Assembly: GCA_001972305.1 (NCBI GenBank)
Contig: BDDD01000902.1
Coordinates: forward strand, 1 to 64,000
DNA length: 64,000 nt
DNA from: Cephalotus follicularis
Taxonomy: Eukaryota; Streptophyta; Magnoliopsida; Oxalidales; Cephalotaceae
Direction: 5' to 3'
In this document: positions 3,801 to 60,645 of the stretch, one piece after another
How the letters are laid out: each line of letters opens with the position of its first letter
Numbering within the stretch: position 1 is the first letter of the stretch
Program-made: the position numbers and the translations under genes
Notes under the pieces: generated by a model
Seen by the model: only the letters and a program-made list of their open reading frames with translations
What the model was told of the DNA's origin: nothing
Database searches by the model: none

Positions 3801-4895
3801 CATTGCGTTTATATTACTCAAGATGTGATCACTGAGGATCATTTTGTGTATATAAAACAATCAAATGAGAAAGTTATTATCTTTGCTTTGTATGTAGATG
3901 ACATTCACTTAGCTGCGAATGACATGGATTTGATTATTGCCACTTAGAAATGGTTGTCCTCTACTTTTGAGATAAAGGACATGGGGGAAGCAAGCTATAT
4001 GCTCAGAGTTAAGGTAATTAGAGATCGTTCAAAGAGACTTCTAGGTTTGTCTCAAGAGACTTACATTAAGAAGATCATTGAACGCTTTCACATGCATAAC
4101 TCTAAACCCATTGATACCCCAATGGAAAAAGGATGTGCTTTAAGCTTAGGTCAATGTCCTAAGAATAATGAAGAAAAGAATCGTATGTCTAAAGTACCAT
4201 ATGCAGCTGCTAAAGGGAGTCTGATGTATGATATGATGTGTACACGACCCGACATTTGTTATGCAGTTGGCATGGTTAGCAATTATCAGAGTAATCCTGG
4301 AGAAGCTTATTGGATAGCGTTTAAGAGAATACTCCGATAACTTCGTGGTATAGCTAACCTTGTCTTATGTTATCATGGGGGTGACTTAAAACTGAGAGGT
4401 TACAAAGATGCTGATTGAGCCAGTGATAGAGATGAACGAAAGTCCATATCAGGGTATGCTTTTGTACTTGGTGGTGGTGTTATCTCTTGGTGCAGTCAAA
4501 AGTATAGTTGTGTTGCCCTTTCAACGATGCAGGCAGAGTATATGGCCTATTCAATAACGGTTTAGAGAGCTATGTGGCTGAGGAGATTCTCACAACGGTT
4601 AGAAGTCATAGCTCATTCCAAGGAGCCTGTTCTTATGTATTGTGATAGTACGACTAAACTTGCATATGTTAGGGATTCCAAGTACCATGAGAAGATTAAA
4701 CATATTGATGTTCGTTATCACTTCATTAGAGACATGGTAGCACGTGGTGAGGTGATTATGCATCATATCTCTACTGGCATGATGGTGGCTGATCCCTGGA
4801 CTAAGCCTATTACTAGAGATGTGTTTCTTTTTCATGCTAGAAGCATATGGGGTTATGTAGGATTTGATACGTGTATTTGTGATTACTTTGTTTAA
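803..4895 (+). mobile_element. Ty1/copia LTR-retrotransposon fossil, internal region
   Basis: Domain order gag, protease, integrase, reverse transcriptase, RNase H marks the Ty1/copia superfamily. The gag part lies at about 803-1690 (UBN2-like). The integrase zinc-binding and core region is at about 2100-2800, including the familiar run reading as YTPQQNGV with ERRN close behind. The reverse transcriptase is at about 3310-4000, with the YVDDI active-site motif near 3890. RNase H is at about 4330-4890, ending in a typical copia tail with D-P-W-T-K-P. The element is badly broken, with more than ten breaks, and is not functional. I could not identify a flanking LTR pair, so the ends are those of recognisable coding similarity. 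It appears old. Confidence 0.9.
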
Positions 4896-16921: not shown

Positions 16922-18643
16922 TCAAGAATGCCAGAGTCCACTCAAGATGCTACGGAATCTGTTGGTAGATAACTTCCTGACAAGTCTTTTTGCATCAGAA
17001 ACTTCTTCTGCAAGTTTCTCTATGTTTTTTAAGTAGCCAGAATTCGCAATCTTTCTTCTTGCTATATTACAACTTGTCAATGACGTTAGTATAGATAGCA
17101 ACAACTTTTTGTTACCTGAATTTCCCTCTTGAGCAAGCAATTGAAGAAGAAAACCAATATTGCGATCATCTTGACCAAACTTTTTTCGATTTGTAGGCAC
17201 CAAAACCATGCTAGAGAGAGCCTCGGCGGCCATTTCGCGTACCTCAAATGATTTTGCTTCAAGGAAGCTAACAAATACCTGCATAAAACCAGCATCTCCC
17301 ATAGCTTTCTTAACCTCCTCTGATGTTCCATTCAGCCTAAATGCCACCTTCAAGGCCAATTCTTGAACCGAAACATCTCCTTTTCGAAGAAAGAATAGTA
17401 AATGTTCCATAAATCCATAATTCAGCAGAATCTTCATACTACTAATTGAAGAGAAACATAAATCCTCAATAACTCTTAGTGCTATCTCTCTAGTTTTCGG
17501 GGAAAATGATGTTTTAGGATCCAAAACACGTACTAAAGCACGAATTCCACCTTCTCTGATAACAATTTGCTTCATTGGCTCATCACCAGACGCTATATTA
17601 TGAAGAAACCCAATTGAAGTTATTTGCACTGCTTCGTCTCTTGATGTTGCAAGCTTGGTAAATGTAGAAATAGCACCCCCTTCAATCATGAACCTCTTGA
17701 TTTCTTCAACGCCAATAAGATTTCTCAAAACCCCACAAGCGGGGGCAACCAATTCACCTCTAGAATCACCACTTGAACATATTTTCAATAGAGCTGTGAC
17801 ACCTCCATGAGAGGAGACTGACCATGCATTATCAGAATTCTCAGTCAAATTCTGCAAGCCCCTTACACTTGCCTCCTTGCCCAAAACACTTCCACTCTCT
17901 AAAACTCGAATCAATGGCCCAATAATCCCTGCTCCAATCAAAACACCCTTGAACATATCAAATCCAGATATCAAAGTAACCACCTTTGCAGCCTCTTCTT
18001 GAATCCCCACATTTATAGAATCAAGAAAATTCACTAGCAAATTCACAATATCACTAATTTCAACGACTGTCTTCACATACCTGTCATCTTCAACCATAAC
18101 TTCATGCAAATTGACCAAAGCTTGTCTCTTCATTTCTGTGTCACCAATCTTCATTCTTGTCAACAAATCACTCACATAGAACCTCATATCATCTTTGCAA
18201 GCACCAACACCAGGTTTGGAGACAACAATAGCAAAACCTTGAGTCAAGAAGCCAGCTGTATAAATCCCAGATAGATTCTTTAAATGTCGATCAAATTTCG
18301 TTGACATTACATCCAAATCACTCTGCATCAAAAGCTTGCCACTATAAGAAAGATCCACACATCTTCTTGCAAGATCATAGCACTCATTGACTGTGACCAA
18401 AATGGCTACTATCAGCCTTGAAAATGATTGGTTTAGACTAGAATCACAGTTTTCAATGGCTGCAAGGCCTGTATTTAGCTCTTCTAGCTTGTTTCTTATC
18501 ACCTGCCATTTCACTGGAAAGACTTTTACTGAATGAGAGAGGAATATCAATGAAGAGATGATCTCTGTGGTTTGTTTGATACTGGATTCTGTAGTAGATG
18601 ATTCTGGTGTGTTGGGGGCTTGCCTGGGATTCTCTTCTCCCAT
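16922..18643 (-). CDS. ARM-repeat (armadillo) superfamily protein, single exon
   Basis: 573 codons plus stop in one uninterrupted exon. ATG at 18643 (MGEENPRQAPNTPE) is preferred because the longer frame to 18718 lacks another upstream ATG-led start of better context; a second in-frame ATG lies only five codons upstream (MRQHK). After a Ser/Thr-rich start, residues about 25-150 form a helical N-terminal region of the kind found in a plant family of ARM proteins (DUF7032-like, as in Arabidopsis At5g50900). From about residue 160 to 545 there are repeated ARM-type helices with GG/GA turns (GAGIIGPLIRVL, GGAISTFTKLA, REGGIRALVRVL, NYGFMEHLLFFL). Length and intron-less structure agree with that family. 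There is no U-box, kinase or membrane segment, so it is probably a scaffold or adaptor. Its molecular function is not established from sequence. It is isolated from other host genes and looks intact. Confidence 0.9.
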   Translation of the reverse strand: MGEENPRQAPNTPESSTTESSIKQTTEIISSLIFLSHSVKVFPVKWQVIRNKLEELNTGLAAIENCDSSLNQSFSRLIVAILVTVNECYDLARRCVDLSYSGKLLMQSDLDVMSTKFDRHLKNLSGIYTAGFLTQGFAIVVSKPGVGACKDDMRFYVSDLLTRMKIGDTEMKRQALVNLHEVMVEDDRYVKTVVEISDIVNLLVNFLDSINVGIQEEAAKVVTLISGFDMFKGVLIGAGIIGPLIRVLESGSVLGKEASVRGLQNLTENSDNAWSVSSHGGVTALLKICSSGDSRGELVAPACGVLRNLIGVEEIKRFMIEGGAISTFTKLATSRDEAVQITSIGFLHNIASGDEPMKQIVIREGGIRALVRVLDPKTSFSPKTREIALRVIEDLCFSSISSMKILLNYGFMEHLLFFLRKGDVSVQELALKVAFRLNGTSEEVKKAMGDAGFMQVFVSFLEAKSFEVREMAAEALSSMVLVPTNRKKFGQDDRNIGFLLQLLAQEGNSGNKKLLLSILTSLTSCNIARRKIANSGYLKNIEKLAEEVSDAKRLVRKLSTNRFRSILSGLWHS

Positions 18644-18729
18644 TTTGTGTTGCCTCATAGGTTTTGCAGCAACCCCATTTTCTCTGTTTGGAGAAAGAAA
18701 AAAAAATCTCTGTTTCAAGAGAGAAATTT

Positions 18730-35849: not shown

Positions 35850-36387
35850 TAAAACCCTTTTGAAACGGTTCGTGTTAACCGTTTCAAAAGGGTATTTTTT
35901 TTTATTTTTTTTAAAACCTTTTGAAACGGATAAACCGTTTCAAAAGGGTGCCCTTTTAAAACGGTTAGAGTCAACCGTTTCAAAAGGGTATTTTTTTTAT
36001 TTTTTTTAAACCCTTTTGAAACGGACAAACCGTTTCAAAAGGGTACCCTTTTGAAACGGTAAGAGACAGCCGTTTCAAAAGGGTCTTATTTTTTTTATTT
36101 TTAAAAACCCTTTTGAAACGGTGAGAGTAACCGTTTCAAAAGGGTACCCTTTTGAAACGGTTTGTCTATCCGTTTCAAAAAGGTACCCTTTTGAAACGGC
36201 AAGTCTCACCGTTTCAAAAGGGTACCCTTTTGAAAAGGTTTGTCCGTTTCAAATGGCTATTGATACGCCACTTTTTTGAAATTCCATTTTTCCGTTTCAA
36301 AACCGTTTCAATTGCCCTTTTGAAACGGAAAAATAGGCCTTTTGAAACGGATTCCATCCGTTTCAAAAGGCCTGTTTTTTTGTAGTG
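35850..36387. repeat. CACTA right subterminal dyad array and terminus
   Basis: About twenty alternating copies of ACCCTTTTGAAACGG and CCGTTTCAAAAGGGT, separated by short variable spacers or poly-T stretches, form a chain of potential hairpins. The array ends in the inverted terminal repeat. It is more than three times as long as the left array. Small ORFs here are by-products of the repeat. Confidence 0.9.
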
Positions 36388-39250: not shown

Positions 39251-40115
39251 TGATATGGGAAAAAATAATCCTATACCAAGGATGACACGTGTTATCCGCG
39301 GACAAAGCCAAGTGTTCAGGGGTTTTAAAGTTTACATCGATACTGGTCAGAGGAAGCTCATCAAGCCTTGGAAGGAGAAGCAGATAGGGACATCCTCCTC
39401 GGCATCAGTGCCGAGAAACTACCCATTAGTGGTGTTGTAGAATCCACCCTCCTCGGCATAAGTGCCGAGGACCTCCTTTGCAACATCAGTGCCGAGGACC
39501 TAGCCAATGGGCTCCTCCTCAACTGCACTGTAGAAGATCTCTTCCTCGGCAGCTTGGCAGATGACCTAATGCTTCAGGCGACAGCCTTTGAAGAATCTTT
39601 TTAAGTTGAAGACCTCGAAGTGGATAAATAAAAGAGAATCTATCTCTCCTCGTCCTCGGCAGAACAAGAACATAAAATCACCCTACTTTCCAGGGATTCA
39701 CCTATTCCAAATATGGAAGATGAGATATAATAAACTACCTACAAGGAAAGTAACGACAAATCAGATGGAGATAAGGGAAATCCCGAGATCCTCGGCATTT
39801 CCTTAGGGGACAGCTATCACCTCCGTATTTCACGCTCAAACAGTTACAAACCAGCACTATAAATACAAGAATCAAAGACATATCTCAGGTTAGCCATTTT
39901 TACATTTGAAAGAACCTTGTTTTCTCTGTGCAAAGCCTAATTTGAGCGTCGGAGTATCCCCGGGAGAACAACCTCCTGGACCTTCAACGAGTTTGCTACT
40001 TTGTGCAGGGATAATTATCATCATCCTTCATCTCAGAGCATCGGACAGCGTTTCCCTAAACAAATCAAGCCCTTACACGCAGGGTACTGTTGAGGAAAGG
40101 ATTTTTGCATCAACA
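39251..40115 (+). repeat. 5' LTR of younger gag-only element
   Basis: 865 bp, TG...CA. It includes a series of short hairpin-forming words of the type cctcggcatcagtgccgagg (about 39400-39505) and a TATA-like ctataaataca near 39855. It is followed at once by the primer-binding-site-like sequence at 40116-40135. Confidence 0.9.
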
Positions 40116-40159
40116 GTTAGCGCCGTCTGTGGGAAACGCAGCGAAAAGTCATTAACAAT

Positions 40160-41974
40160 CATGCCTCTGAGAAAGAACAACAGCCAGCTTGGAGCCACAG
40201 GCAGTCAACAACAGGAGATCACACATCCTCTCCCAGAAGCAGTTCAAGTTGTGGCCCAAGAGCAAGCTCCCGTCACAGGGGAGCAGTTCCATCAGTTGAT
40301 CCAGGGGATGGAGCACCTCACTGACTTGTTGGTTACTAGTTTAGCCAACCGACAACACGTCGGACCTGCTCTACCAGTAGTCCGAGGAGCATCCGACCCA
40401 AGCAGACCAATGGTGGAGACAGGACACCCCGAGGTGTCAGGCGAAACCAACCAAGGGGGGAAAGACACCCTCCAAGGTGGTCGGAGGTTCAAACACCTCT
40501 GGGAGTTGAGCTAAGGTGAAACCCGCCGAGGGGAAATAGGCGTCCCCCAAGGCGGTCAGAGGATAATATTCCCATGGGGAGGAGACCTGAGATTAATACA
40601 TCTCAGAGGGCAGAGTCCTCAGCTGTCCGGGATCAGCCCAACGATCCTAGGAGGGCGCGCCCTGAACACCAGGCCATGGATGTGGATCATCGGGAGGAAG
40701 CCAGAGGAGTAGAGGAGGCACCAGTGCGCTCCAATGCTCCACACAAAGCTGGTATGGCACAAGGAAGCAGGATCGACCCGCCAGCCACAGTAGCTGGAGG
40801 GTCACATGTTTCTAACAAGGCTAGGAACATAGAGGATGTGGAGCAAGCAATGAACAGAAAGCTTGCTGAGTTGGAAAGAAGGTTCCGAGGAGCAGAACAG
40901 CACAGGGGACATATGTCCGAGGTGCGCAACATCAGCGCCCACCCCTTCACACCCGAGATCATTGCAGAGCGTGTTCCCAGCGGGTTTCGGTTCCCAAGCC
41001 TTGACAAATATGACGGGTCCACGGACCCCATCCAACATGTGCGCTCTTACATCCAAGCCATGTGGATGTACCAAGCCTCGGACGCAACACTTTGCCGAGG
41101 ATTCCCAGTGACCTTAACTGGAGCTGCACAGTCGTGGTATTTCACCTTGACAGAGGATTCGGTGGAGAACTTCGATCAGTTTACAGAACTGTTCGTGACC
41201 AAGTTCCTTAACAGCACCACGCAGAGGAGAAACTCTACCCACCTAATCAACGTGGTGCAGGGTAAAGATGAGTCACTGAGAGATTACCTCACCAGATTCA
41301 ACAGGAAATCTCTCACAGTGAAAGACCTGGAGCCATCCTTCGCACTAGCAGCTTTGAACAGCGGATTGAGAAGCAACTCATCCTTCACCTTCTCTCTTTT
41401 GAAGAGACCCGCGATGGATATGGCAGATCTGCTGAGGAGAGCAGAGAGATATGCCAATGCCGAGGAAGAGATGGCAGCCAGGAAACAAAAGACACCCTGG
41501 TCAGGCCATCAGGAGGAGAAAGGGGAGCATTCACGAAATGCTCCCGAGAAGAAAGAGAAGAGGAAAGAGAGGTCGGAATTGTCCAGGAAAGACCTCAGAC
41601 ATAAACTCTCCAGACGAGAGAGCTCGTTTGGGAGAGGGGGACCTATACCATCCTACAACAACTATGCCCCTCTCCTGGACACACGCACCAGAATACTTGC
41701 AGTGGAGAAGGACAATGTCCCTTTCCAGTGGCCTGAGAAGTTGAGGTCTCCAGCGGAGAAGAGGGACGTAGACAAATTTTTCCGGTACCATCGTGACCAC
41801 GGTCATGATACAGATGAGTGCAGACACTTAAGAAATCAGATTGAGGACCTGATTCGCAGAGGTCATCTTAGGAAGTATGTTAACAGAGATGCCCTAGAAG
41901 GAAGAATAGAACATAGAGAAGAAGCACCTCAACCAGCAGAAGATCAGCAGCATCCCAGAGGACTAATCCACTAA
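40160..41974 (+). pseudogene. Gag region of younger gag-only element
   Basis: The core reads as a retrotransposon gag (capsid-like) domain, with YDGSTDPIQHVRSYIQAMW near 41008 onward, GAAQSWYFTL, LRDYLTRFN and ADLLRRAERY. Its C-terminal zinc-knuckle-like H-G-H-D-T-D-E-C is followed by LRNQIEDLIRRGHLRKYV. The long open part is 40574-41974. It is 60-70% similar by eye to the gag of the element at 52693-56366. The family is Ty3/gypsy, Tat-like. Such a product could only be mobilised by a relative supplying pol. Treated as a fossil with few breaks. Confidence 0.8.
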
Positions 41975-41999
41975 TAGTGGAGAAAGTCTTGAAAACTAG

Positions 42000-42800
42000 A
42001 TGGCATGGTGCCATGACCAGACTATCGGGCAGAAGAAAATTACCTCTTGCCAGAGAACATTCAAACCCTAAACTCTGGAGGGCAGGGAGATTGCCAGAGC
42101 TTGGAATGCCGAGCATCTGAGGAAATAGTACTGAATAAACTTGAATTTTTCAAAATTTGTGTTCAATATCATAGTTCCAAGTTTGTAAGGGACCAGAGGC
42201 CCAATGCTCATGTCCTTAAACCTCTGAACAACTGCCAGTCAACCCCTTTAGCAGAGAACAAATGCCAGCCGAGGTCTCAAACAAACCAAGGGTAAACAAG
42301 ACTCCTTAAGAGGAGCAATCAATATTCCTTCCAAGGAGCCAACAACACTCCTTCCGAGAAGCACCCAAAACCATACGTGCAAAAGACTCCCTCCGAGGAG
42401 CATATCTATACACACTAACAAAGACTTCTTTCGAGGAGCACACCAAAAGACTTCCAAGGAAGCACTAAGACTCCCCAGAGAGCAAACACTGGTCGACAAC
42501 ACCATAGGAACTTGACCAACTAGACCTAAAATCGTGTCTTGAAAGGCGAATCCATGGGAACTCGCAACTATCAAGCTCATCGGACTGAGCACTTTAATAC
42601 AAGTGTCCCTATGCGGACTGCAAGCTTAGCCGGCCTGTCCCAAAACCTAATGGGTCAGACGATACCCTGCTCGGCAAACCCATAGGAACTTGTCTGAGCA
42701 GACCAAGGCCTTAGTCTACGAACACAGAAGAACTCGTAAAGACTAAGTCAAAATTACTCAAGCATTTTTGAAATAAAGTGTCCTACGATGACTATTAAGC
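42000..42800. repeat. Non-coding block with dyads between gag and antisense unit
   Basis: At 42300-42480 there are degenerate repeats of ctccgaggagca-like words, each a small inverted repeat. At 42500-42760 are phrases such as cttgaaaggcga, catgggaactcgcaac and aaacccataggaacttg. The same phrases occur in the same order in the other gag-only element (55013-55672). The block is therefore a conserved structural part of this element family and not random spacer. Confidence 0.6.
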
Positions 42801-42814
42801 CTAAGTGTTTACTT

Positions 42815-43072
42815 CTATGAGAAGTCAGAGATCCAAGTAAAGACAAAATTCCTAAGGGAATTGTAAACATACATATATATATGCAGAGTGCTAACACCAA
42901 AGCAATCCGAAGCTGGGGTGTCAACCTCGGCGATGGGGGCTGCAGGGTCACCCACCGCAGCCCCTAGGCTGCCTTCAGAGGAGAGGGGACTTTCGGCAGT
43001 GGGAACCACCATGGCCAGGGGTTCGACTTCTAAGGGAGGAGATGACCTAGCAGTCTGCTTAGTTCTGGCCAT
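42815..43072 (-). CDS. Antisense ORF with histone H3-like N-terminus
   Basis: Starting at the ATG at 43072, an 85-codon frame begins MARTKQTARSSPPLEVE. The first nine residues equal those of histone H3 (MARTKQTARKS). They are followed by a proline/alanine/acid-rich, low-complexity tail (about residues 12-60) and then poorly coding-like residues, where the real frame may be spliced or eroded. The ORF lies on the strand opposite to gag, between gag and the 3' LTR, the place where Tat-lineage plant retroelements are known to carry extra, sometimes antisense ORFs. It has its own TATA box and a leader intron. K4 and R2/R8 equivalents are kept, and the K9 position is serine. Its function is unknown; mimicry of the H3 tail is an inference. 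Confidence 0.6.
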   Translation of the reverse strand: MARTKQTARSSPPLEVEPLAMVVPTAESPLSSEGSLGAAVGDPAAPIAEVDTPASDCFGVSTLHIYMYVYNSLRNFVFTWISDFS

Positions 43073-43150
43073 CTATGTCAGACGAAAAAATAAGAAACTA
43101 GAGAAATCCTAGATTGAACCTAGAACAATAAGAAGACTGTGGCAACTTAC
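43073..43150 (-). other. Putative 78-nt leader intron of the antisense unit
   Basis: Read on the minus strand, a strong donor GTAAGT (43145-43150) and a pyrimidine-rich stretch ending in ...GACATAG (43073-43079) bound a 78-nt intron. It is placed so that the ATG of the H3-like ORF is the first codon of the next exon. A leader intron directly before the start codon is common in highly expressed plant genes. Confidence 0.5.
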
Positions 43151-43278
43151 CAAAGATCTGGACGAAAGAATGGCAGGAAAATGAAGATTTGAAGGCACTG
43201 TAAATCTCAGTAGCTCTCAACAACAAAACGGAGATTAAAGATTGAAAGGGTAAAAGGTTCTCTTTGAGAAAAAGATAT

Positions 43279-43287
43279 CCTTTTATA
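43279..43287 (-). promoter_or_regulatory. TATA box of antisense unit
   Basis: TATAAAAGG on the minus strand, about 130 bp ahead of the putative leader donor, consistent with transcription starting near 43250. A G-box-like CCACGTG lies further upstream near 43400. No transcript evidence is available here. Confidence 0.5.
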
Positions 43288-43692
43288 GACTCGTAGCTCG
43301 GATCCTGACCCTCCACATCGCACAGATCCAACGACTGAGGAATGAACGGTCAAATCAGACGCGTGAGACGAAGAGACAGAGGCGGGAAACGCACTGTTTA
43401 TGCCACGTGTAAAACGTGTTCAATACACAACTTAAATGCAAATGATTTGGGCTCGCGACACGAGGCCCGTTAGCAGAAATAGGTCCAAACAGAAGGCAAG
43501 CTACAATCCTCTGCTAAGGCGAGCTCAGTTTTTGTCAGAGGATCACCAAAAACTACACCTTCAAACCATAGCTCTTTCGCACGTGGAAAAGCATATGAAA
43601 AGTTTCCCGGAGGAGTTCAGCCCGAGTCACGACTCCCAGCTCTGTTCCTCCTCCTCTGACCACGGTCAGAGAAGAAGGACCAGTGGGGCATA

Positions 43693-44557
43693 TGAAATGG
43701 GGGAAAATAATCATATACCAAGGATGACACGTGTCCTCCGCGGACATAACCAAGTGTCCAGGGGCTTTAAAGTTTACATCGATACTGGTCAGAGGAGGCT
43801 TATCAAGCCCTGAAGGAGAAGCAGATGGGAACATCCTTCTCGGCATCAGTGTCGATGAACTACCCATTAGTGGTGTTGTAGAATCCACCTTCCTTGGCAT
43901 AACTGCCGAGGACCTCATTTCCAACATCAGTGCCGAGGACCTAGCCAATGGGCTCCTCCTCAACTGCACTGTAGAAGATCTCTTCCTCGACAGCTTGGCA
44001 GATGACCTAATGCTTCAGGCGACAGCCTTTGAAGAAGCTTTTTAAGTTGAAGACCTCGTAGTGGATAAATAACAAGAGAATCTATCTCTCCTCATCCTCG
44101 GCAGGACAAGATCATAAAATCAGCCTACTTTTCAGGGATTCACCTCTTCCAAATATGGAAGATGAGATATAATAAACTACCTACAAGGAAAGTAGCGACA
44201 AATCAGGTGGAGATAAGGGAAACTCCGAGATCCTCGGCATTTCCTTAGGGGACAGCTATCACTTCCGTATTTCACGCTCAAACAGTTACAAACCAGCACT
44301 ATAAATACAAGAATCAAAGACATATCTCAGGTCAACCATTTTTACATTTGAAAGAACCTTGTTTTCTCTGTGCAAAGCCTAATTTGAGCGTCGGAGTGTC
44401 CCCGGGAGAACAACCTCCTGGACCTTCAACGAGTTTGCTACTTTGTGCAGGGATAATCATCATCATCCTTCATCTCGGAGCATCGGATAGCGTTTTTCTA
44501 AACAAATCAAGTCCTTATACGCAGAGTACTGTTGAGAGAAGGATTTTTGCATTAACA
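43693..44557 (+). repeat. 3' LTR of younger gag-only element
   Basis: 865 bp, the partner of 39251-40115, with about 52 hand-counted substitutions and two single-base length differences. It is preceded by the purine-rich tract and followed by the ttatt target duplication. Confidence 0.9.
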
Positions 44558-47435: not shown

Positions 47436-48188
47436 CTACAGAGTGAGCACGGAAGGTGGGGCATCCGTTCTTGGACCTGCAAGAGAACGGTAGACATAAA
47501 CTTTATAGGCATGACTGTCATCCCTCAGATCATCCTTCATAACCTCCACATTCAACCTGGGCATCTTCCTTGCCAAGTGCCTACAGCCATTCATTGTCAC
47601 CTTACAGGATGACATCCAGAGTGACCTCATAGACTCGTACTTCTCCAAACCCGAGAGCAGAGCTGCATTCCCAAATGGGCAATCCCTTATCTCAAGTTTC
47701 CTCAACTTTGGACAACCACCCAGTACACACTGCATCCCCCAATCACTGCTGCCAGCAAAAGCCACTGATAGGGTTTCCAGGTTTTTAGCATACTTTCCAA
47801 TATACTCAAATGTCAAGTCGCTCAGGAGACCAGAAACCGAGAGCCTCTGGAGTTTAGTGCAAGTTTTTACCACTGAACCAAAAGCCTCATCCATTGGCTC
47901 ATTAGTCAGGTAATCTGGTTGGCCTGGGTTCATTATGCAGAGACGAAAGTGGGTGAAATCTGGACAATTCTGCACAATGGTTGCTACAGCAGCATTAGTC
48001 ATTTGCCGGCAAAAGAAGAGAACATAGTGGAGTCTCCGGCAACCATAGGATACAGCGACAAAACCAGCTTCAGTCACCCCATGGATATCTTCATCAAATG
48101 GATCAGCAGGAAAAACACGGAGTTCCTCAAGCAAAGGACAATTTGCTCCAATAGACTCCAGGCCTTTATCTTCCACTGTGTCCATGAC
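47436..48188 (-). CDS. AFB-like gene, exon 3 (residues 336-585)
   Basis: Starts VMDTVEDKG after the acceptor ttgttgcAG and ends VLTL then TAG. It holds the C-terminal leucine-rich repeats, including FRLCIMNPGQPDYL (R417, auxin pocket), LQRLSVSGLLSDL (R450, S452) and IRDCPFGNAALLSGLEKY. The segment 47615-47636 is the position of the miR393 target site in TIR1/AFB2/AFB3 genes; here it does not match well. Confidence 0.93.
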   Translation of the reverse strand, partial: VMDTVEDKGLESIGANCPLLEELRVFPADPFDEDIHGVTEAGFVAVSYGCRRLHYVLFFCRQMTNAAVATIVQNCPDFTHFRLCIMNPGQPDYLTNEPMDEAFGSVVKTCTKLQRLSVSGLLSDLTFEYIGKYAKNLETLSVAFAGSSDWGMQCVLGGCPKLRKLEIRDCPFGNAALLSGLEKYESMRSLWMSSCKVTMNGCRHLARKMPRLNVEVMKDDLRDDSHAYKVYVYRSLAGPRTDAPPSVLTL

Positions 48189-51100
48189 CTGCAACAAGGA
48201 TACAATGAAGTTACAACCTCCAGAATATGAAGTTAGAACCTCCAGAATATCAATTTTATGAATAGTAGGTGATGTCAAACATAATCAATAACTTATGTAT
48301 GAATAGTTCTATACATGTTGGGCTTGCTTGCATCTGTATTTCTCTGAAATTATTAAATGAAACAATAAAGCAGTGAAAAAGTCTTCATTTGATCACATGG
48401 TGTCCAAAGCAACAGGGAGAGATTTTGCTTGTTGCTGAAATGACTACCAGTAAATAACATACAACAAAGATAATTGTGTCTGAGATCACTCGGAAGGACA
48501 AAGAGAAAGAGGGGGAAGGGTGATAGACGCTTACATCATACTGGAGGCATAGGAAAATAATTTTGTTAGTAAGCCTAGGACTGTGACTCAAAGAGTGAAA
48601 AACAATCTCAACCACAAATAATTGGAGGTTTTATAATATCGATAACACTTTCAGGGAAAATACATCATGTCTCTTCAGTTCAAATTTCAAACATTCATAA
48701 AAAGTTCAGTATTTAGTGAGGACATCCGATCTTTAGGTTAAATGAGTCAAGGTCTCCACCACAATGATTAATATCCTGCCGACAATTGTCTCAATATAAA
48801 GAAACTAGATTATTATAAGATAAAGAAAGAAATCAGAACCATTTTCTCATGCCTCGTCCATGCATCTGACACACATAAGGGGAAGGGATCCATTGGCTGA
48901 ATATTTAAAAGGATATTAAACAAGAAGAAAAAAAGGTTCATGGTTGCTTTCTGCAGCATTCATGATGACATGTACAAAACAACTACGATTACCGTCTCCT
49001 AGATCAGATGGTGAATTTATCAAGAATAAACTTGGTTTTATGGTTGCTTCCTCCAGTATTCCTCCTAGAAACTAAAGAATCATCTTCAAGAAGGTATAAT
49101 AAATGGCAAAGGTTATAAACAAAAGTTTCTTACCCAGAGGCGTCGAAGAAGCGGACAGTGTGCAAGAAGCTTAGAAAATTCACCACTTTGCAAAGTTGCA
49201 TAGCTCAAATTTAAAAAGGTCAAATTTGCACACGCAGGGAAAAGAGCTGGAAGATAAGCAGCTGTTGCATCCCATAGACCAGAGAGGGTATGAAGACTTT
49301 TGCAATTGTTAAATGCACTCCCTAATTCTCCATTCTGGCCAGCCATGAGCTCTTGTGAGAATGATCCAGTACCGAGTTCCATCAATTGCGGAGCACAGAC
49401 TAGAAGCTCTAGTAATTGTTCTAATGAAATACCTTTGTTAATTTTCAAAACCTTCAGCGACTTGCACCTACTTACAAGTCTTTGAAGAGCATCAAAGTTA
49501 ACATCATTGCTCAAGTTAGCAAAATTCAATACTTCCAAAGTTGTGAAATTTTCAGGAAAGCAGCTCAACCAACTGCCACTTTTATCATCCACATCGTTCT
49601 CATGTATATCGAGCTCAGTCAAATTCCTGTAACAAAATAACATGAGAACTGAAAAACTGACAAGAACCACAAAGACAACTCATTTTAATAATCCGATCAT
49701 TTATTTTCTATGAAAAATCTGCTACATATCTCTGAATTATGGAACTGGGGATCCAAAAACTGTAGGACAGACCATAAATGGGGAATTAGGGTTCTACTAT
49801 TGAAAAAGTGCCTTAGAGTCAAAATATTAAAGTTTAAATAAACAGAGATAAATCTTAGAACCTAGATGAGGGATTTCTAGGAGTCAGTCTCGCCATTAGA
49901 AGGTTGCAGATAGCCTCTTTATTCTGAATACTCGTTTATTCAAGATTTGCTTATAAATTAAAAAACCTAAGAACTTAACTAATATAATTACAGATCTCCC
50001 CCTTGACTGCGAAATTATAAAAACACCATCGGATAAATAATGGATTTGTTATTATCAATCCCTAGAACGCATGCATCAAAAACTCTTAACAAAATGAGGG
50101 AAAATTGAAACACGATCATAGATGCATGTCAATTACTCAAGAGTTAATAGTTTTTAATTAGTTCTGTTTCATTGCTCAGAATGTTATGTTTAGGTGATCA
50201 AACATTCAAAGCAGGTTACCAGTCTCAAAAAGCAAGAGCATGTCCATTCCTTCTAAGGTATCAACTGAAGATCCAACTAATTAAACAGATAGCATAGTTA
50301 CAAGTTACAGTCCTGTCCCGATACCTTATGTGCATCGCCTGGGATGGCAAGTTGTGGACGTATAGTGCTCTATCTCAAAACGAGATTGGCACTAATTAGA
50401 AAATAAAGAACAATACTATACCAAACAAATGTGGGGCAACTTCTTCTTACTCGCTGATTGAGGCCTACATCTTATGTCAATTATTGAAGCCATGTGCATT
50501 TCATGTGATATTTTGCATTTCACAGACTTAATTAAAGATTTACGAACAACATACATGTCTGTAATTTGTGGCAATCTATATATAAACATGCAGGATTGGT
50601 GAGTAAGAAGTTGTTCATACTGGTGCGATGCTAAGTATTATCTTAATATAAATAGCAAACTGAAAAGATACTAAACTACAATGGGAACTCAGAGAGAAAT
50701 AAGGAATTCATTTTTTCAGATGAAATTAATGCTACTAAATGTTACCATGTCGCAAGTAACGACCAGGATATGGTGAAGTATAAAGAATATAATTCCCTGG
50801 TCTCTTAAAACTACATCAATGAGAATAGAAACAACTCCCAAGCAACATGCTCTGACAGATCCTCAACCTCACATATCTATAACATGCAACACGTGGACTA
50901 ACAGTGGGGTTCTGATTTTCACACCATGCTCATCCTAATTTTTCAAGCATGTACACAATCAAATCCTCAACTCTATCTGCTTAATAACGAAAGCATCTAA
51001 ATCACATGGCATGCACAACGAAGATTTCATAAATAATGACAGCCAGAGGACTAGATAAACACTCCCAAATTTTCTTTCCCATAATGGCAGGCATTCCACG

Positions 51101-54100
51101 GCATGATTCAATCACGTAAATTTTCAAACTATTTCTTTAAGGCTTCTTAGGATGTAAATAATCTAACAAATAAATAAAAGGCTTTGCTAGCATGGAGACT
51201 GACATCAATGATATGCTATCCAATAAATGCATATTAATAAGTCAAAGATCACATCAAAAAGAGGAAAGTAACACATAAGAGAAAAGAAATGAAAAGTAGG
51301 AGCACTTCTATATCTGCTAAACCCCCTTCTTTCTCAAAACAAATAGAAAATTAAGACGATCCACCTCTAATTAAATACAAATAATACAAATCAACCCTAA
51401 TTAAAAATCAGGGCACCATACAACTACATTGAAACACATATTACTCAACAGCCATCACCATTTTAAAGTAACATTCTGACTATTTTTGCACTTCATGTCC
51501 AGATGAAACTATGTTTCGGATACTTTACATTCAAAGAAACATAAACACCACAGATCACAAAGAGTTGATCACAATCAAAAGTCAATAATTAAAGTGTAAC
51601 AACTTGCAACCTAAAGCCCAAAAAATAAGTGGCTAACTCAACTTTACGACAGCGACTAATTTGCAGTCCAACTCCTATTAACATTTGAGACCTGCATGCT
51701 ACTGGGCCATTCACATAATAGCAAATCAGGAAATTCCAATGTTGATTTATCACAAGAACTTTCCTAGCCAAGGGATAAATTCTTTTTTATGGTTTTTTAA
51801 AAAAAAAAAAAGCATACAATGAACATTAGAATATTGATATCTTCGTCCAAGAATTTAGAAATTTTGCATTCCTGACATTTCTTGGAAAATACTAACTTGA
51901 TGTAGAGATGGCAAAGGATAGGTGACCTGTGAAATTAACCCTACCTGTTCAGCTGTTCCTGAGATCATTTAATTACCTCATTTATATATCCATCCCAAAC
52001 TCGTCCCAAACCCGTAAGAGCATGAACCCACTATACCCATTAACTACACGTAATGTCCTGAACCCACTATATTTGCTAACTACCTATCTTATCCGATTAT
52101 TCATTAATTGAGTAGGATACAGGTCTCATTCTGAACCCAAGCCCAGAACTGTTAAACTCCTTACCGAAACTTTTGAACTACTTCCAAAAACTGGTGGATG
52201 CCACTTTTGGCAACAAGTAAACGACGAAAGAATAATTACCGCATAGCTCTGTGACTTCGGGAGAATTGAGGGCTTCATCATAGAAAATGAAAATGTATGG
52301 TGTTTGCTTCTTTTTAAAGGAAACACAATCTTGTAATTTAGGAAATAGAATATCCCTAATTAATTGAATGTGTGGGGACCGAGTAAACTAGCCCCTATTA
52401 ATATATGTACCAAAACTCTTTCAATATATGAAAAACTATCTTGATTATTATCTATGATAGCATTGGGTCTTTCACTGATATCATTGTTTCTCCAATCTTC
52501 ACACTCTATCTAAAAGAACTACAGGCCAACACTGCTACTCAATCTATATTTGTAATCCTTAGACAATGCTTTACCCCTTAGAGAACTGACCAGCAAATCC
52601 TTTACTTTGTCAACCAAAGTTTGGAGAAGAGCACCTCCTCTAGTGCTTTTGATAGATTCTTCATACTGAAGTCTAAACTAAGAATTTGGAACTGATGTGA
52701 AAAAAATTATGTATTATTAAGGCACTGACACGTGTCATTAAAACCCACAAATACGGGCAAAACGACCAGGTTTGTGGTCATAATGGGGGAGGAAACGTCT
52801 CCATCCCATAATGAAGAAATGGTATGGAATCTCGGCTATTTCTAAGAGACTCATAATTATCTCCTCAATGCTAACAGTTCAGAGATGTTACAGTCAGGTA
52901 AGACTATAAATACCCCAAAAAAAGATAGTGAAGAGGGCGAACAATTTGCCATACAAGCTTACCATTTTCTCTGCATAACAACCGATTTAAGCATTGGAGT
53001 GTCTCCGGGAGTAAAACCTCCTGGACTATCGATTATTTGCTTTCTTTGTGTGTAGGGAAGACGAAAGAATAAAAAACCAAACACAATCTTTGGACCGTCA
53101 TGCATTTCCTTCAACAAATCAAACCTCTACACATTGAGGAATATTGTGAAGTTGATTTACGCATCAACAGTTGGCACCGTCTGTGGGAAACGCGACATAA
53201 GATTATTCGACGATGCCTCCGAAGAGAACCACCAACCCTGCGGCCGTTCCTGGTCAAGCTCCTCTCACTGATGAGCAATTTAACCAGCTACTTCAAGAGA
53301 TGGGGAGGCTCACTACCTTGCTAGCAAACAACTTGGCCAACCCCCCAGAATCAGGCTGGACCAAGCCGACCAGCCCCACAGAATCAGGCCGAACCTAACC
53401 GACCAGCCCCAGAACTACAACAGCCTCAAGAGGTTAGGCAAAACTCGCCAAGGGGGGCCAAGCGCCCTCCAAGGTGGTCAGAGATTGATACATCTCTGAG
53501 AGCAGAGTCCTCCAGTGCAAAGGGATTATAATTATAACCCCGCGTAGGACCTCCCAGAGCAAGATCCAATGGAGGAAGACTACTCAGATTATTATGTAGT
53601 TGAAGAGGAATCCCATGCACGTCCCTACACATCTCGTAGGACTGAATCAGGACGGAGGAGCAGGTCAGACTACTTGGTCAGACCAACCGGAGGACAATCC
53701 CAGGTCTCTAGCAAGTCTAGGGACCAAAAAGGTATCGAGCAGACGATCAACAGAAGGTTTGCAGAGATAGAGAAAAAGGCTCAGAGGAGCCGAGCAGACG
53801 AGGGGATACTTGTCAGAGGTGTGGAACTTAAACTGCACCCCCTTCATTCAAGAGATATTGAGGGAGCCTGTGCCAAGAGGGTTCCCAACGTTCAGAGATT
53901 ATGACAGGTCCCTGACCCAATGCGGTACTACACTCAGATCATGCTGGTGCATCAAGCTTCAGACGCTATCCTTTGCCGAGGACTTCCAACGACCTTCACA
54001 GGTGCAGCACAGATGTGGTATGCCACGTTGCCCCCCAAGTCGGTGGCAAACTTCGAGCAATTCAGCGAGATGTTTGTCACCAAATTCCTTAACAGCATTA

Positions 54101-57100
54101 CCCAAAGAAAGAATTCTAGTCATCTAATCAACGTGGTGCAAAAAAAAAATGAATCCCTCAGAGATTACCTGACTCGGTTCAACAAGGAGTCACTGATGGT
54201 AAAGGACATGGAGCCTTCTTTTGCTCTTGCAGCCCTGAACAGCGGGTTGACAGACAACTCAGCTTTCACTTTCTCCCTGATGAAGAAGCCTGCCCTTGAC
54301 ATGGCAGACCTCCTTAGAAGAACTGAAAAGTATATAAATGCAGAGGAGGCTCTACAGGCCAGAAAGCAAAAGACCTCCTTGTCTGACCATCAGAAGAGGA
54401 AAGTGGGGCCAAAGTTGACAGAAGATGACTTGAGGCACAAACTCTCAAAGAGGGAGAATTCACCAAAAAAGGGATCACCAATCCCCAATTACAAAAGCTT
54501 CGCCCCTTTTCTCGGGACAAAGACCAGAATCCTTGCAGTGGAGAAGGAAAAAGTCCCAATCCAATGGCCACATCCGTTGAAAACCCCAGCAGACAAGAGG
54601 GATTTGAGCAAATACTGCCGATACAATCGCGATCATGGGCGCGATACGGAGGACTGTAGGCAGTTAAAAAATCAGATAGAGGACTTAATCCACAAAGGTC
54701 ATCTGAGGAAGTATGTGAATAGAGATGCTCCCCAGGAAAGAAGAGAGCGCAGAGAAGAAGCTCCATAACAGGGTCAGGAGCACCAACCTAGAGGGGTGAT
54801 ACACAACATTTTTTGACTAAGAATGGTCCTCGGCTGAGAGAGAGGCGAAGAAAGAGGAACTGATTACGTTCCTCAAAAATAATAGAGATGTATTTATCTA
54901 GTCTGCAAAAACGAAAGATTATTAGTTAAGTATAAAAAATGTGTACAAATGCTCAGTTCATTCAATAAAGATGATTTTCTTTAAAAATCTGTTCCAGTTT
55001 TACAATAAAAATACTCCCACGGGAGCAATCAGAGAAGACTCCCACGGGAGCACTCAGAGAAGACTCCTAAGGGAGCAATTAGAGAAGACCCCTACGGGAG
55101 CAGCCAGAGAAGACTCCTAGGAGAGCAATCAGAGAAGACTCACACGGGAGCAGTCAGAGAAGACTCGTAAGGGAGCAGTCAGAGAAGACTCCTAAGAGAG
55201 TAATCCTAGAATACTCCTAAGGGAGCAATCAGAGCAAGTCTCGAGCAGACTAAAGCTTTAATACAAACTTATTCAAAGACTCCCAAGGGAGCAATTCAAA
55301 GACTCCTAAGAGAGCAAATGCTGGTCTGCAAACCCATAAGAACTTGCCAGACCAGACCTGTATCGTATCTTGAAAGGCGAACACATAAGAACTTGCAACG
55401 ATCAAGTTTGTTGGACTGAACGCTTTGATACAAATGCCCCCACAGGGGGATAAAAAGTTCAAACGACCTGGTCTGAAAAATATCAGACCAGTACGAAATC
55501 CTGGTCTACAAACCCATAAGAGCTTGTCAGACCAGAAACACATCTTGATCTGCGAACACATAAGAACTCGCAAAGATCAAGTCTCGTTAGCTAAGCGCTT
55601 TGATACAAGTGCCCTATGTGGGCTAAAAAGCTCAAGCGACCTGGTCTGAAAAATATCAGACCAGTAAAAAAGTCGTCTACGAATACGATAGACTAAGATA
55701 AATATTCCTAAGGGAAATGCAAAGCTTCGTCCTGCCACGCATCAATTAAAGCCGGAGCTGGGCCAAAAAGCAAAGCCCATAAGCTAAAACAGGCCAAATT
55801 ACGCGTCAAAGGTCTGCTCAAAGCAAGACTACCTCACTAATGCTCCTCCTCCTCTGCTAAGCACAGAAAAGGAAGACCAGGGGGGCATATGATGTGAAAA
55901 AAATTCATGTATTATTAAGGTACTGACATGTGTCATTAAAACCCACAAATACAGGCAAAACGTCCAGGTTCGTGGTCATGATGGGGGAGGAAACGCCTCC
56001 ATTCCATAATGAAGAAATGGCATGGAATCTCAGCCATTTCTGAGGGACTCATAATTATCCCCTCAATGCTAGCAGTTCAGAGACGTTACAGCCAGGTAAG
56101 ACTATAAATACCCCCAAAAAAGACAATGGAGAGGGTGACCAATCTACCATACAAGCTTACCATTTTCTCTGTATAACAACTGACTTAAGCATCGGAGTGT
56201 CCCCGGGAGTAAAACCTCCTGGACTTTCGATTATTTGCTTTCTTTGTGTGCAGGGAAGACGAAAGAATAAAAAACAAACACAATCTTCATACCGTCCTAC
56301 GTTTCCTTCAACAAATCAAACCTCTATACGTGGAAGACTGTTGTGAAACTGATTTACGCATCAACAGGAACTATGAGTTGTATTGTGCTCTTAGTCAAGT
56401 TTATTGTTGATAGTTATTAGACTATTGACCTTTGATGGAGTGACATACAAAATTTTGTAGATAGACACAATCCATTTATTTTGGAAATCAAAGCTTTATG
56501 GTAATCTATGTGTATGTGTGTGTGTGTGTGTTCTGGCAATCAATGCTTTCTGGCTAAAGAACTTTCTTTTATACATGTAAATTTTGGCTTAAAGAGTCCC
56601 ATTCTGTCTAATTCAAAATTTGAGACTTCAAAAATTCAAAGGATATAGTGTTTTTTTTTTTTCATTTTCTCTTTTTCAAATGACATGAAATTGCAAAAAT
56701 GGTTGCTGTCAGAGATGTTGTTCGCAGTTGACATGAATAAAATTCATTAAAAATTCACATATGCCATCAATTAAATGCTCATTTTAAAAGCTCATTACTG
56801 GCCAAACATCACACCAATAATGAACAGACAAAAAAGCAGAAATGAAACCAAAATTAGGTTTCTTTTTGTGTAAAGCACAGTAGAATAATTACCCATATAT
56901 GGACAGCTCAAAATTATTATCCACTTGAGTACAGCTTCAAAAGTTTTAGAGTCAAGGGTACAAAGTGTTAAATTTTATTTGTTCACTCTCTCTCCTACAA
57001 ATGAGACTCATGCTATCATGCACCATCTCCATCAGCTCTTCCTATCTTACTGCATCTTTAATTTTATACCTTCTCTTATTATCCTCGGTGTTCTCCATAT

Positions 57101-60100
57101 TCTTACTTTTGTTGTTGTTGGTCTGTATTGCCAAACATATCTATAGACTATAGCTAAATATTTAGCTTGATGTTCTAGATACAACTTGTTGTTTCTGTAG
57201 TGCCACAATGGGCATACAATGGGCATACACTCTATTCAACCTGTAAACAAAAGCGTGCATGATCGATGCCGCAACTTATAGACATGAGCTTTGTGATATA
57301 AGGTGTCTAGCATTAGAGAATGTGGTTGAATCACTTAGCTTCCTTGCAAGTACATGGCGCTTGGTGTTCATAGATCTTCCATTATTACAATAAACTCAAC
57401 CATGAGACGTGTAACTCCAAATATCCCATATTACATTTCACTCTTAAAAGAATATAAAATATATGTAGACAAAAAAGATAACTTAAAAGAGTAAGATTGA
57501 AAGAGAGTGAGGGGGCTAGCATTTATATTGGGTTATGAACTTTCCTAATGTATAGGTGGTGTTTGTCATTAAAGGCATCTTAGATTCATGTTTGTTTTTT
57601 TTATCATTGTGCATGAATTTTTGGTTTTGTTGTAGACAACATAAGTTTGTTGTTTATTGAAGCTAAAGAAGTTTGATAAAAAAATCGTTGTGTAAGCAAT
57701 GACAAATCATGAGCAGAAGTGTACAATATGTCTTATTCATTGTTCATTTGATGCATGTATACTGTACTTTCTTTAGAGATGAGGTGTACAATATAATGGA
57801 GTGTTCATTATTTCAGATGTTCCTACTGAAGTAGAGAGGTACTCAGTTGCCCTAGCTACAAGACAAGCTAGGGAACAATGAAAAGAGCACGAAGACATAG
57901 TCGCAAGCGAAGCGAGACGAGAGGAGATTCGCCACCGTCAGTCCTACCAAGGGAAGAAGAACGAAATAGAAAAGAAAGGAAATGTGTTATGGCCAAACAC
58001 ATATGGTAATTATTGTGATGAAGTGTATATTAAGTCTTATAAGATGTATAATGTGTTATACAGAACTTACTTTATTCAAAGATAATGCGTACAGTATATC
58101 CAATAATGGTTTCTGATTAAACATATTGTTTAAATGCATTGCCAAATCACACACAAAGGTGTACAATATGAGTTATATAGTGTACATTTTATGTACGTAG
58201 AATGTACGTTCTTAGGAGATAAGATGCACAATATTATGGAGTGTTAATTATTTTGCATATGTATATGTTTAAGGTGAACAATGCGTTTGTGGGATATACT
58301 TTATTCAGAGATAGGTCGTACAATATATATAATGATGTTTTCCAATTAAATACAGACTGCCCAATCACACACAGAGGTGTACAATATGTGTTATATACAG
58401 TATACATTCTATGTACGTAGGATGTACGTTCTTAAGAGATGAGATGTACAATTTAACATGTTATGCATTTTAGGCTGTCTCCCTTCGTCCTCAATGACCC
58501 CTCTTATCCAAAGAGACTTTTCCACTTATAGTGGCTGATGCTACAGAGCTTTACCAAAAGAGAAAGGTTATCTCTTTTCCTAGGCGTAAATGCATGGCAG
58601 TAGTACAAGGGCAGCAGTGTTATGGTATGAAAAGTAGGGAGAATCATTTCCAGTAATGTTATGGATATGCATTGACACTTATCTTTCTTTTCCATATCGT
58701 AATAATTAAACTAGTAAATATAATGGCCAATTTTTATTACATATAATGGCCTTGGCGACTGAAAAATAATAAATAACAATACTATATATATAAGTACAAC
58801 TGGTGAGCTCAACAACAATGGTTTTCGAATGCCTTCAGGTGATTGGATCTGCAAGGATCCGTCATTTATGATGGTTTCTCCTTTTCAGCGACAGGGGGAG
58901 TGGCTCATGTTGGATGTCATTACGCTATGGAAATGGTTGGATTGTGTGAATCTCAGTAATTTAAAGGTATCTATTTTGTTGGTTTATAATAACTACCACT
59001 TTAAAGACATACCACATGCTATTTTTATTAATTATTTGCTATTGAGTGTAGTTTTCTATTTGGCTTGCTTATCTTTGTTTACTAGTGATGTAGAGCACAA
59101 GTGGTCAGTATTTGATACAGAGGGTCAAGAAGAAGAACCAAAACACAGAAGGGGTGTGGATTTCCCACCTCTTATACCTCTGGGAAAAGTGCTGTTAGCT
59201 TTCAGACATAGACATTCAATAGAAAAAAAATAAGTAGATAAAAAAAAAGGAAATCTAACATTTTGTACACTTAACTATAAAATATTTGAAGCTGTACACA
59301 AGTGGTTAATAAGTTTTGAGCAGTACACATACTGGTAATTACAAAGGCAACGCAATTAATTCACAGTAACATGTGCAAATATTCGCTTAAGGAATGCAAC
59401 AAAAAAAAAAATCATATTTTCTTATTTTTGCCTGAATGAAACTCACTCAGATCTCTAAATATAAGCTAAAAATAACTTATTCAACTCTCACGTGAACTAC
59501 AGTTGCATCGATTTAGGAATATTTCTCATATAAATTTAATTAACAAAAAAACAAAACAAAACGTAACAAAACAAAACAAATCGAAGCTAAGGATTAACTG
59601 AAATGGAGTAATACTTACTTGCAATGAGTAGCAATGGCAGCAAGTCCATTAGTACTAAACCCATCACAGCTCACGAGCGATAGAGCCTTGAAATTAAGAA
59701 AGTTAAGAGACAAAAACTCTAAGCTCTCATCACTCACACTCATTCTCTTGAGCCTCAGCTCCTCCAAAAACGGATATTTCAAAGCAAACACAACCAACCA
59801 ACAGTGAATATCGGCTCCCCAATCATCGGGCACCAAACTGAAGTCCGAGAATCTTGGTTTCCCCTTCAAAGTCACGCTCCGGATTCTTGGGAACCGCCTC
59901 GCCACCATCCCCGGCGACACGGCGTAACAGTTGCCGATGAACACGTGAGTGCGTGACCATCGCTCCGCGTTGTACCAGTCCCTGCAAACGAGAGAAACTG
60001 AGCTCCGATCTTTGCGGGATTCAAGGATAGAGAGTACTCGCTCGAGTACTTCGTCGGGGAAAGGTGAGCTCCGAGTCGACTCGGCCGAGTGAACAACCGT

Positions 60101-60130
60101 TCCTTTCGTTCGCCTTGAATCCGAATCCAT
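47436..60130 (-). CDS. TIR1/AFB auxin-receptor F-box protein, AFB6-like
   Basis: Three exons on the minus strand: 60130-59619 (512 bp), 49626-49134 (493 bp) and 48188-47436 (753 bp). They join in frame to 585 residues, and all borders are GT-AG. An F-box occupies residues about 22-66 (FPDEVLERVLSILESRKDRS, SLVCRDWYNAERWS) and is followed by leucine-rich repeats to the end. The family is the substrate-receptor part of SCF ubiquitin ligases that binds auxin together with Aux/IAA proteins. Auxin and inositol-hexakisphosphate contacts of TIR1 can be matched: K74 to K89, R403 to R417, R436 to R450, S438 to S452. H78 is replaced by R93, as in AFB5. The sequence fits neither TIR1, AFB2 nor AFB5 closely, and AFB6 is the best guess. 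Intron 1 is about 10 kb and intron 2 is 945 bp. The gene looks intact. Confidence 0.93.
49134..49626 (-). CDS. AFB-like gene, exon 2 (residues 171-335)
   Basis: Starts after tttgttacAG within codon K171 (NLTELDIHEN) and ends in LRRLW with donor GTAAGA. It encodes the middle leucine-rich repeats (LEVLNFANLSNDVNFDAL, RCKSLKVLKINKGISLEQL, SGLWDATAAYLPALFPACANL). Both borders agree with the conserved exon pattern of the TIR1/AFB family. Confidence 0.93.
52693..53169 (+). repeat. 5' LTR of older gag-only element
   Basis: 477 bp. It has a TATA-like ctataaataccc near 52905 and the phrase gtgtctccgggagtaaaacc (near 52999), also found in the LTR of the younger element in altered form (gtatccccgggagaaca), which shows a distant shared origin of the transcribed part of both LTRs. 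Confidence 0.9.
53213..54768 (+). pseudogene. Gag region of older gag-only element
   Basis: Opens MPPKRTTNPAAVPGQAPLT and carries the same domain as the younger element: GAAQMWYATLPP, FVTKFLNSITQRKN, LRDYLTRFNKESL, PSFALAALNSGL and the knuckle-like HGRDTEDC then LKNQIEDLIHKGHLRKYV. The long open part is 53920-54768. It is a fossil with a few breaks. Confidence 0.8.
55013..55235. repeat. 25-bp tandem repeat, about 9 copies
   Basis: Unit actcccacgggagcaatcag followed by agaag, with slightly varying copies. Each unit contains the small inverted repeat CTCCCACGGGAG. It lies between gag and the 3' LTR of the older gag-only element. There are no spacers of unique sequence, so it is not a CRISPR-like array. 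Confidence 0.9.
55321..55672. repeat. Tandem duplication of 180 bp in gag-only element
   Basis: Two copies starting ctggtct(g/a)caaacccataag at 55321 and 55501 and ending atatcagaccagta. Each copy carries the complementary words ctggtctg and cagaccag at several places, so multiple stems are possible. A single diverged relative is present in the younger element at about 42500-42760. Confidence 0.85.
55890..56366 (+). repeat. 3' LTR of older gag-only element
   Basis: 477 bp, the partner of 52693-53169, followed at once by the ggaac target duplication. Confidence 0.92.
57701..58456. repeat. Diverged tandem repeats, unit roughly 220-350 bp
   Basis: The words caaatcacacacaaaggtgt (58143) and aatcacacacagaggtgt (58363), each followed by acaatatg, then ttatat, atgtacgta, gatgtacgttctta and gagatgagatg/gagataagatg, define two close copies. 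A third, more diverged copy starts near 57701. In between, ttactttattcaaagata and atactttattcagagata also alternate. The origin is unknown; it lies within intron 1 of the AFB-like gene. Confidence 0.6.
59619..60130 (-). CDS. AFB-like gene, exon 1 (start and F-box)
   Basis: ATG at 60130 (MDSDSRRTKG). A frame with a GTG codon continues one residue upstream, but GTG is not a likely plant start. The exon carries the F-box, the VFIGNCYAVSP repeat and LKGKPRFSDF with the R93 substitution, and ends in the codon for K171 with donor GTAAGT. Sequence around 60131-60250 is GA/CT-rich leader. Confidence 0.93.
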
Positions 60131-60645
60131 CACAAAAGAGAGGAATTGAGGATCCGAAAATGAGATCCGGAGAGAGGAGGAGGTTAATTAAAAAGAAGAA
60201 ATGAGAGCTGTCTCAGTTGTGACTGTGTGTGGCCACTTGCGTATTGAAAAGCAGAGTAGATAAATAAAGTAGTTAATTAATGAGTATAGAGCTTTTAATT
60301 ATATTTTATTACAATCAATTATTATTGGGAATTACAATAATTATTGGGAGTATTCTGTTTGTTTATTTCTTGGAGTTGAAAATGACAGAGAGAGGAAAAC
60401 GACATTTGGAGAAGGCTATATAGCCCACCACCACCACGACTCTGTGCCGGGATGCGTATTATGCACACAGTCTAATCTTATGACACGTGTAAGGATTTCT
60501 TCCCAGTTGAGGCTAGGAAGAAATACAACCAATGCTAATTATGACACTGTCTAATCGGATGGATTTGTGAGTAATTACTCGTATATACAAAACACACAGC
60601 ATTTTTATGAGTCATAAATAGAGTGATATTGTATCCGGTTTGCGT

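Follow-up and report, generated by a model that had tools for sequence, protein, structure and literature searches.

The main result of this analysis is a gene-like unit, found within the 64-kb stretch of DNA under study (the window), which lies on the reverse strand of a gag-only LTR retroelement (element 1, 39251–44557, 5.3 kb), between gag and the 3' LTR, and whose open reading frame (ORF) starts like the tail of histone H3. Residues 1–11 of the product are those of H3 at 10 of 11 positions, the exception being K9, which is replaced by serine, and S10 of H3 is kept after this replacement. The unbroken identical run, MARTKQTAR, comprises nine residues with the methionine and eight in the mature protein and retains R2, K4 and R8, in agreement with the initial annotation of this DNA, which had pointed out nine N-terminal residues in a row equal to H3. 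We tentatively read the unit, with a probability of about 0.4, as the 5' remnant of a Tat/Retand accessory gene in a TR-GAG-like element, the H3-like start of which would serve as a decoy in intact relatives. We prefer this reading since an exact start of this kind would arise too seldom by chance, and since the position and orientation of the unit match those of reported Retand antisense ORFs. The remnant would have a promoter of its own, a leader that is spliced and some 56 codons of the N-terminus, and beyond the break the frame would enter ordinary element sequence. That the unit is transcribed, spliced and truncated, that the element belongs to this family, and the whole chain of the mimicry are what we infer from the sequence.

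Reading the minus strand directly, a putative TATA box (TATAAAAGG, 43279–43287) is followed by a putative 5' untranslated exon (43151–43255), whose transcription start is placed from the TATA box and which is free of ATG. Then comes a putative leader intron, GTAAGT...TAG, of 78 nt and 46% T (43073–43150), predicted to be spliced from the donor GTAAGT at 43150 to the acceptor TAG ending at 43073. The ATG follows directly at 43072; the minus strand holds no ATG between the TATA box and 43073, this one being the first with the leader either spliced or unspliced. It opens a minus-strand ORF (42815–43072, the stop codon ending at 42815) that translates into 85 residues, MARTKQTARSSPPLEVE..., beginning MARTKQTARSS. 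The antisense TATA box, the 78-nt GTAAGT...AG leader intron and the ATG-MARTKQTARSS frame had been described in the initial annotation, and direct reading confirmed all of them.

It had also been argued that a spliced leader placed before this ATG makes a chance ORF unlikely, a claim which stands in a weaker form and is not decisive. The arrangement of GTAAGT 70–150 nt before AG|ATG is found 3 times in the window, against 4.97 expected from 100 simulated order-2 windows, and with TATAAA added the figures are 2 and 0.66. When an ORF of at least 60 aa is required together with TATAAA, donor and AG|ATG, the window has one case against 0.06 per simulated window, a number flattered by the fact that the distances were picked after seeing the case. 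A chance origin, in which an ATG came by accident to stand before codons for ARTKQTAR in a decayed antisense region, would be served by the gene layout alone being a 0.06-per-window event, by an ORF that is short and domain-free, and by the many motifs that could have been noticed when scanning many windows. Nevertheless, that the H3-like start arose by chance is very unlikely: an order-3 Markov model of the window predicts only 5.5e-8 starts of the ATG plus ARTKQTAR kind per window, and both a TATA box and an intron would also have had to precede such a start. A degenerate pattern for the start gave 10 exact matches in 257 Gb of prokaryotic genome contigs. Seven are H3 on translation (L003, L004 and L006–L010; L004 parts from H3 after 15 residues, and the contig stops within L009), presumably from contaminating eukaryotic DNA, two (L002 and L005) begin MARTKQTARK and then diverge from H3, and one (L001) reads MASTKQTAR; an exact scan of viral contigs returned no match. 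This amounts to 2 to 3 non-H3 cases in the 257 Gb, or fewer than 1e-6 per 64 kb, a rate that serves only as a guide as the collections are prokaryotic and viral, not plant. The match to the H3 tail asks for descent or selection instead of luck, and a single copy fits either.

The element in which the unit is found has two LTRs of 865 bp on the plus strand (5' LTR, 39251–40115, starting with TG and ending with CA; 3' LTR, 43693–44557, with a polypurine-like tract ending GGGGCATA just before it), which are 93.8% identical and differ by 38 transitions and 13 transversions over 864 aligned sites (K 0.062). The flanking 5-mers, TTGTT and TTATT, have one mismatch and are read as a decayed target site duplication. 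On the same strand, the primer binding site region (40116–40140) is followed by a gag ORF of 466 aa (40574–41974; Pfam Retrotrans_gag, E 5.3e-15) and, between gag and the antisense unit, by a tandem repeat with 3.4 copies of a 23-nt unit (42286–42363). No Pfam match and no pol were found after gag in the longest 10 of 21 plus-strand stop-to-stop peptides up to the 3' LTR, nor in the ORF before gag (39906–40514). A related gag-only element of 3.7 kb (element 2, 52693–56366, plus strand) has a perfect GGAAC target site duplication, a higher LTR divergence (K 0.106), a primer binding site region identical to that of element 1 at 22 of 25 bases, and a gag ORF of 282 aa that matches Retrotrans_gag and is 68% identical to the gag of element 1. 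Both therefore have the TG/CA LTRs, primer binding site and polypurine tract regions, target site duplication and Retrotrans_gag of an LTR retrotransposon with a gypsy-type gag, the latter model being one that we take to be typical of Ty3-gypsy. Element 1 has a gag and lacks pol, as TR-GAG elements do, and is probably a non-autonomous TR-GAG-like derivative of a Tat/Retand-type Ty3-gypsy element; the Tat label is our assumption from the layout, as placement in this lineage goes by RT, RH, INT and the additional RNase H domain and no pol was found in either element. As presented in the available part of PMC10025401, TR-GAG elements consist of LTRs and gag only, as here, with a median length of 4.8 kb, compared with 5.3 kb and 3.7 kb for the two elements; the definition given there is without an antisense unit, whereas element 1 has one.

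Antisense accessory ORFs are already known; what is unusual here is that one begins like the H3 tail. In the accessible portions of PMC7264820 and PMC11963269, the antisense ORFs of Retand/Tat elements (aORF-3R; Grande gene23, RIRE2 and Silene Retand ORF4) have the same reverse orientation, lie between gag(-pol) and the 3' LTR, and have tandem repeats nearby, as in element 1, which supports the earlier statement that extra antisense ORFs occur in the Tat lineage. For Grande gene23 the same portions report an antisense promoter of its own, comparable to the TATA box seen in element 1, and a nuclear product. Like the Retand accessory genes, the ORF under study is antisense and sits between the coding region and the 3' LTR. 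It differs from them in the lack of TRP28 and in having only about 56 plausible codons, within an element that has no pol; as far as the available text of PMC11963269 goes, TRP28 (PF04195) is present in 97% of clusters and the ORFs counted are of 600 bp, longer than this one. Neither TRP28 nor any other Pfam domain reached the cut-off in any of the 21 minus-strand stop-to-stop peptides of at least 25 aa that lie between gag and the 3' LTR of element 1, and the idea of plant-mobile-domain or TRP28 relics was rejected on this result. Matches to DUF6405 (E 0.15), CD225 (E 0.092) and Rtt106_N (E 0.14) were far under the cut-offs and taken as chance. Since TRP28 is missing, the antisense ORF can be at most a remnant of a Retand accessory gene. 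Its product matches nothing in NCBIfam up to E 0.1 and no PDB sequence up to E 10. A minus-strand ORF of 114 aa (42248–42592), considered as a later exon, is domain-free, overlaps the 23-nt tandem repeat and is probably incidental.

The composition of the ORF is uneven, with a GC content of 0.55–0.68 in the 60-nt steps starting from 43072 to 42952 and of 0.32–0.42 in those starting at 42922 and later. The GC-rich first part (42905–43072, minus strand) is likely the true coding remnant, of about 56 codons. The AT-rich end (42840–42867, minus strand) resembles element 2 at 55723–55695, with a local alignment score of 36 that none of 200 shuffles reached (shuffle maximum 26), and this end of the ORF is probably non-coding. 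The unit is taken to be truncated because the GC content drops near 42905 and because the ORF end matches an element which has no such gene. The 50 bp adjoining the 3' LTR of element 1 on the gag side also match element 2 (score 48, reached by 0 of 200 shuffles), and neither the GC-rich exon (52 of 200 shuffles reach its score) nor the leader (158 of 200) matches element 2 above shuffles. When 42700–43700 of element 1 was aligned with element 2 by MAFFT, nearly all of the element 2 stretch was set against 43422–43700, the match at 42867–42840 coming from the local alignment and not from MAFFT. In these alignments the antisense unit is absent from element 2, and a segment of about 770 bp with the unit is present in element 1 and absent from element 2. 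Loss in element 2 together with truncation in element 1 is a simpler story than insertion into element 1, given that antisense genes are general at that place in Retand elements, according to the available text of PMC11963269. Between gag and the 3' LTR of element 2 we also note 9.2 copies of a 25-nt tandem repeat (55013–55242), of a kind reported in Retand elements.

The open frame by itself carries little information, because a neutral ORF would stay open with P 0.87 after the substitutions implied by the LTRs, and MARTKQTAR would survive neutrally with P 0.54; an intact antisense frame was accordingly rejected as a sign of selection, neutral survival being likely at this LTR age. The corresponding value for gag staying open, under substitutions alone, is P 0.28. 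A single-sequence AlphaFold model of the product has a mean pLDDT of 68.7, with block means of 46–72 in residues 1–60 and of 60–92 in a helix at residues 55–84, from which no function is read, as the helix is the AT-rich ORF end. The lack of domains, the match of the ORF end to sequence of the gene-less element 2 and the lack of the unit there argue against a working protein in the element 1 copy. The domain-free ORF and its probably non-coding end would suit a function at the RNA level, in which an incidental ORF sits on an antisense transcript that acts by base-pairing with the RNA of the element and so adjusts silencing or the control of copy number; PMC7264820 discusses a regulatory role of antisense transcripts in plant LTR elements. 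We regard this as rather improbable, as it leaves unexplained both the H3-like start and the leader intron directly before it.

With respect to how far the likeness to H3 extends, tblastn with H3 over the region found no convincing similarity past residue 11 (next best E 0.59), and neither Pfam nor a PDB sequence search up to E 10 found a histone fold after the tail of the antisense ORF product. The idea of a whole-gene H3 pseudogene was rejected, since the similarity ends at residue 11, and the reading as a short mimic is based on the fact that only the tail matches H3. The tblastn output also contained FQKGTLLKR-like peptides from repeats on both strands at 35850–36340.

A serious rival to the mimic reading, though one we consider somewhat unlikely, is that the element captured the front of a plant gene of the H3.3 type, whose promoter, leader, leader intron and about nine codons would have been fused to unrelated sequence, the tail being inherited by descent and possibly doing nothing. 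Plant H3.3 genes are described as having a 5' leader intron near the ATG, and capture of such an end would account at once for the promoter, the leader intron and the H3 start. A 7/8 match to the histone octamer at 43304 and an 8/9 match to the nonamer at 43333 lie upstream of the TATA box (0.07 and 0.08 expected, respectively, in 620 nt for the given orientation). However, six motifs were sought in both orientations, and two of them, the hexamer and CCAAT (1.6 expected for the latter), did not occur, which makes the motif support thin. The Type-II histone motif with up to 3 mismatches (3 upstream of the ATG against 0.62 expected) and the AACGG core (3 against 0.74) were set aside as too loose. 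The near-matches to octamer and nonamer and an AACGG core fall within 43297–43349 on the minus strand, just upstream of the TATA box.

Some extra ORFs of chromoviruses reportedly have partial similarity to H3 (Steinbauerova 2011), which speaks for capture; these are said to be 5' ORFs of grass chromoviruses, credited to gene capture. H3 pieces in gypsy extra ORFs would then have a precedent, an H3 likeness in an extra ORF of plant Ty3-gypsy elements being common to both cases, whereas the ORF of element 1 is antisense, 3' and resembles the tail only. Retroelements are known to capture genes, although captured genes are usually in the orientation of gag-pol, according to the accessible part of PMC7264820. 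Capture is also disfavoured by the loss of H3 similarity past residue 11 and by the lack of clear inverted repeats of a carrier: in 42700–43700, two of three inverted pairs are local palindromes and the third (16 nt, 81%, arms 653 nt apart) has one arm within the ORF, so that no convincing carrier-transposon signature was found there. The two readings would be reconciled if a captured end was later put to use as a mimic.

In the preferred reading, the unit is a remnant whose intact relatives would encode a decoy. Removal of methionine is usual before alanine, and the protein would then present a free H3 end in which R2, T3, K4, Q5 and R8 are kept and serine stands for K9. With K4, R2 and R8 retained and K9 lost, proteins that bind the free end and K4 are more plausible partners than the H3K9 machinery; a decoy without K9 could not itself carry the H3K9 mark. 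The most likely use in intact relatives would be that of a decoy or hook for proteins that bind residues 1–8 of H3, around K4, with LSD1-like demethylases (LDL family) as the favoured target. In animals, SNAG domains resemble H3 only loosely, whereas the first eight mature residues encoded here are H3-identical. According to PMC12612597, the SNAG domain imitates the tail of H3 and brings in LSD1; these are animal transcription factors for which we claim no homology, the likeness being one of working only, through an N-terminal H3-tail-like peptide. By analogy, a SNAG-type hook would repress via LSD1 and by itself would not relieve silencing. In Arabidopsis genes, LDL2 removes H3K4me1 downstream of H3K9me2 (PMC13157976, available part); as read, this work concerns genes, not transposons, a limit that counts against the mimic reading, as do the single copy from which the H3-tail start is known and the lack of the unit in element 2. 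We hold it unlikely, if conceivable, that a plant gypsy lineage encodes, in an antisense spliced gene of its own, an accessory protein with the H3 tail as its free N-terminus, K4 being retained and K9 lost, which titrates K4-directed chromatin proteins such as LSD1-like demethylases and so defeats, at the element, the silencing that acts downstream of H3K9me2.

Retand antisense accessory genes are widespread and of unknown function, as stated in the accessible text of PMC11963269, the main text of which, as available, makes no mention of an H3-like start ('histone' and 'n-terminal' occur 0 times each). If some of them start as H3-tail mimics, a target class is named, the H3K4 readers and erasers, and if this is true the role of antisense accessory genes against host silencing becomes directly testable. 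Judging from titles and the starts of abstracts among the matches listed in the open-access literature, no retroelement protein with an H3-tail start was found; among these, MARTKQTAR is used as an antibody test peptide in one paper, and ARTKQTAR occurs once in a mouse retrotransposon paper (PMC2861705). Searches for relatives in viral contigs gave 1 and 9 pattern stretches with gag and the antisense ORF and 139 with an alignment of the two gags, none of which was confirmed, and the alignment gave 87 stretches in prokaryotic genome contigs, likewise with none confirmed; these collections are viral and prokaryotic, and the results have no bearing on plants.

Elsewhere in the window, fragments of a copia-type element are found on the plus strand (1097–4340), of which 1097–1693 matches Retrotran_gag_2 just over the cut-off and 3954–4337 matches RVT_2 under it. 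An intact minus-strand ORF of 598 aa (16922–18718) has DUF7032 and armadillo repeats. A TIR1/AFB-type auxin receptor gene occupies 47436–60133 on the minus strand, where 59618–60133 has F-box_5 and Transp_inhibit, the exon at 47439–48278 matches TIR1 in PDB (E 1.3e-91), and an LRR stretch (49113–49670) was assigned to the same gene by eye. Element 2 would then lie in the large intron of this gene.
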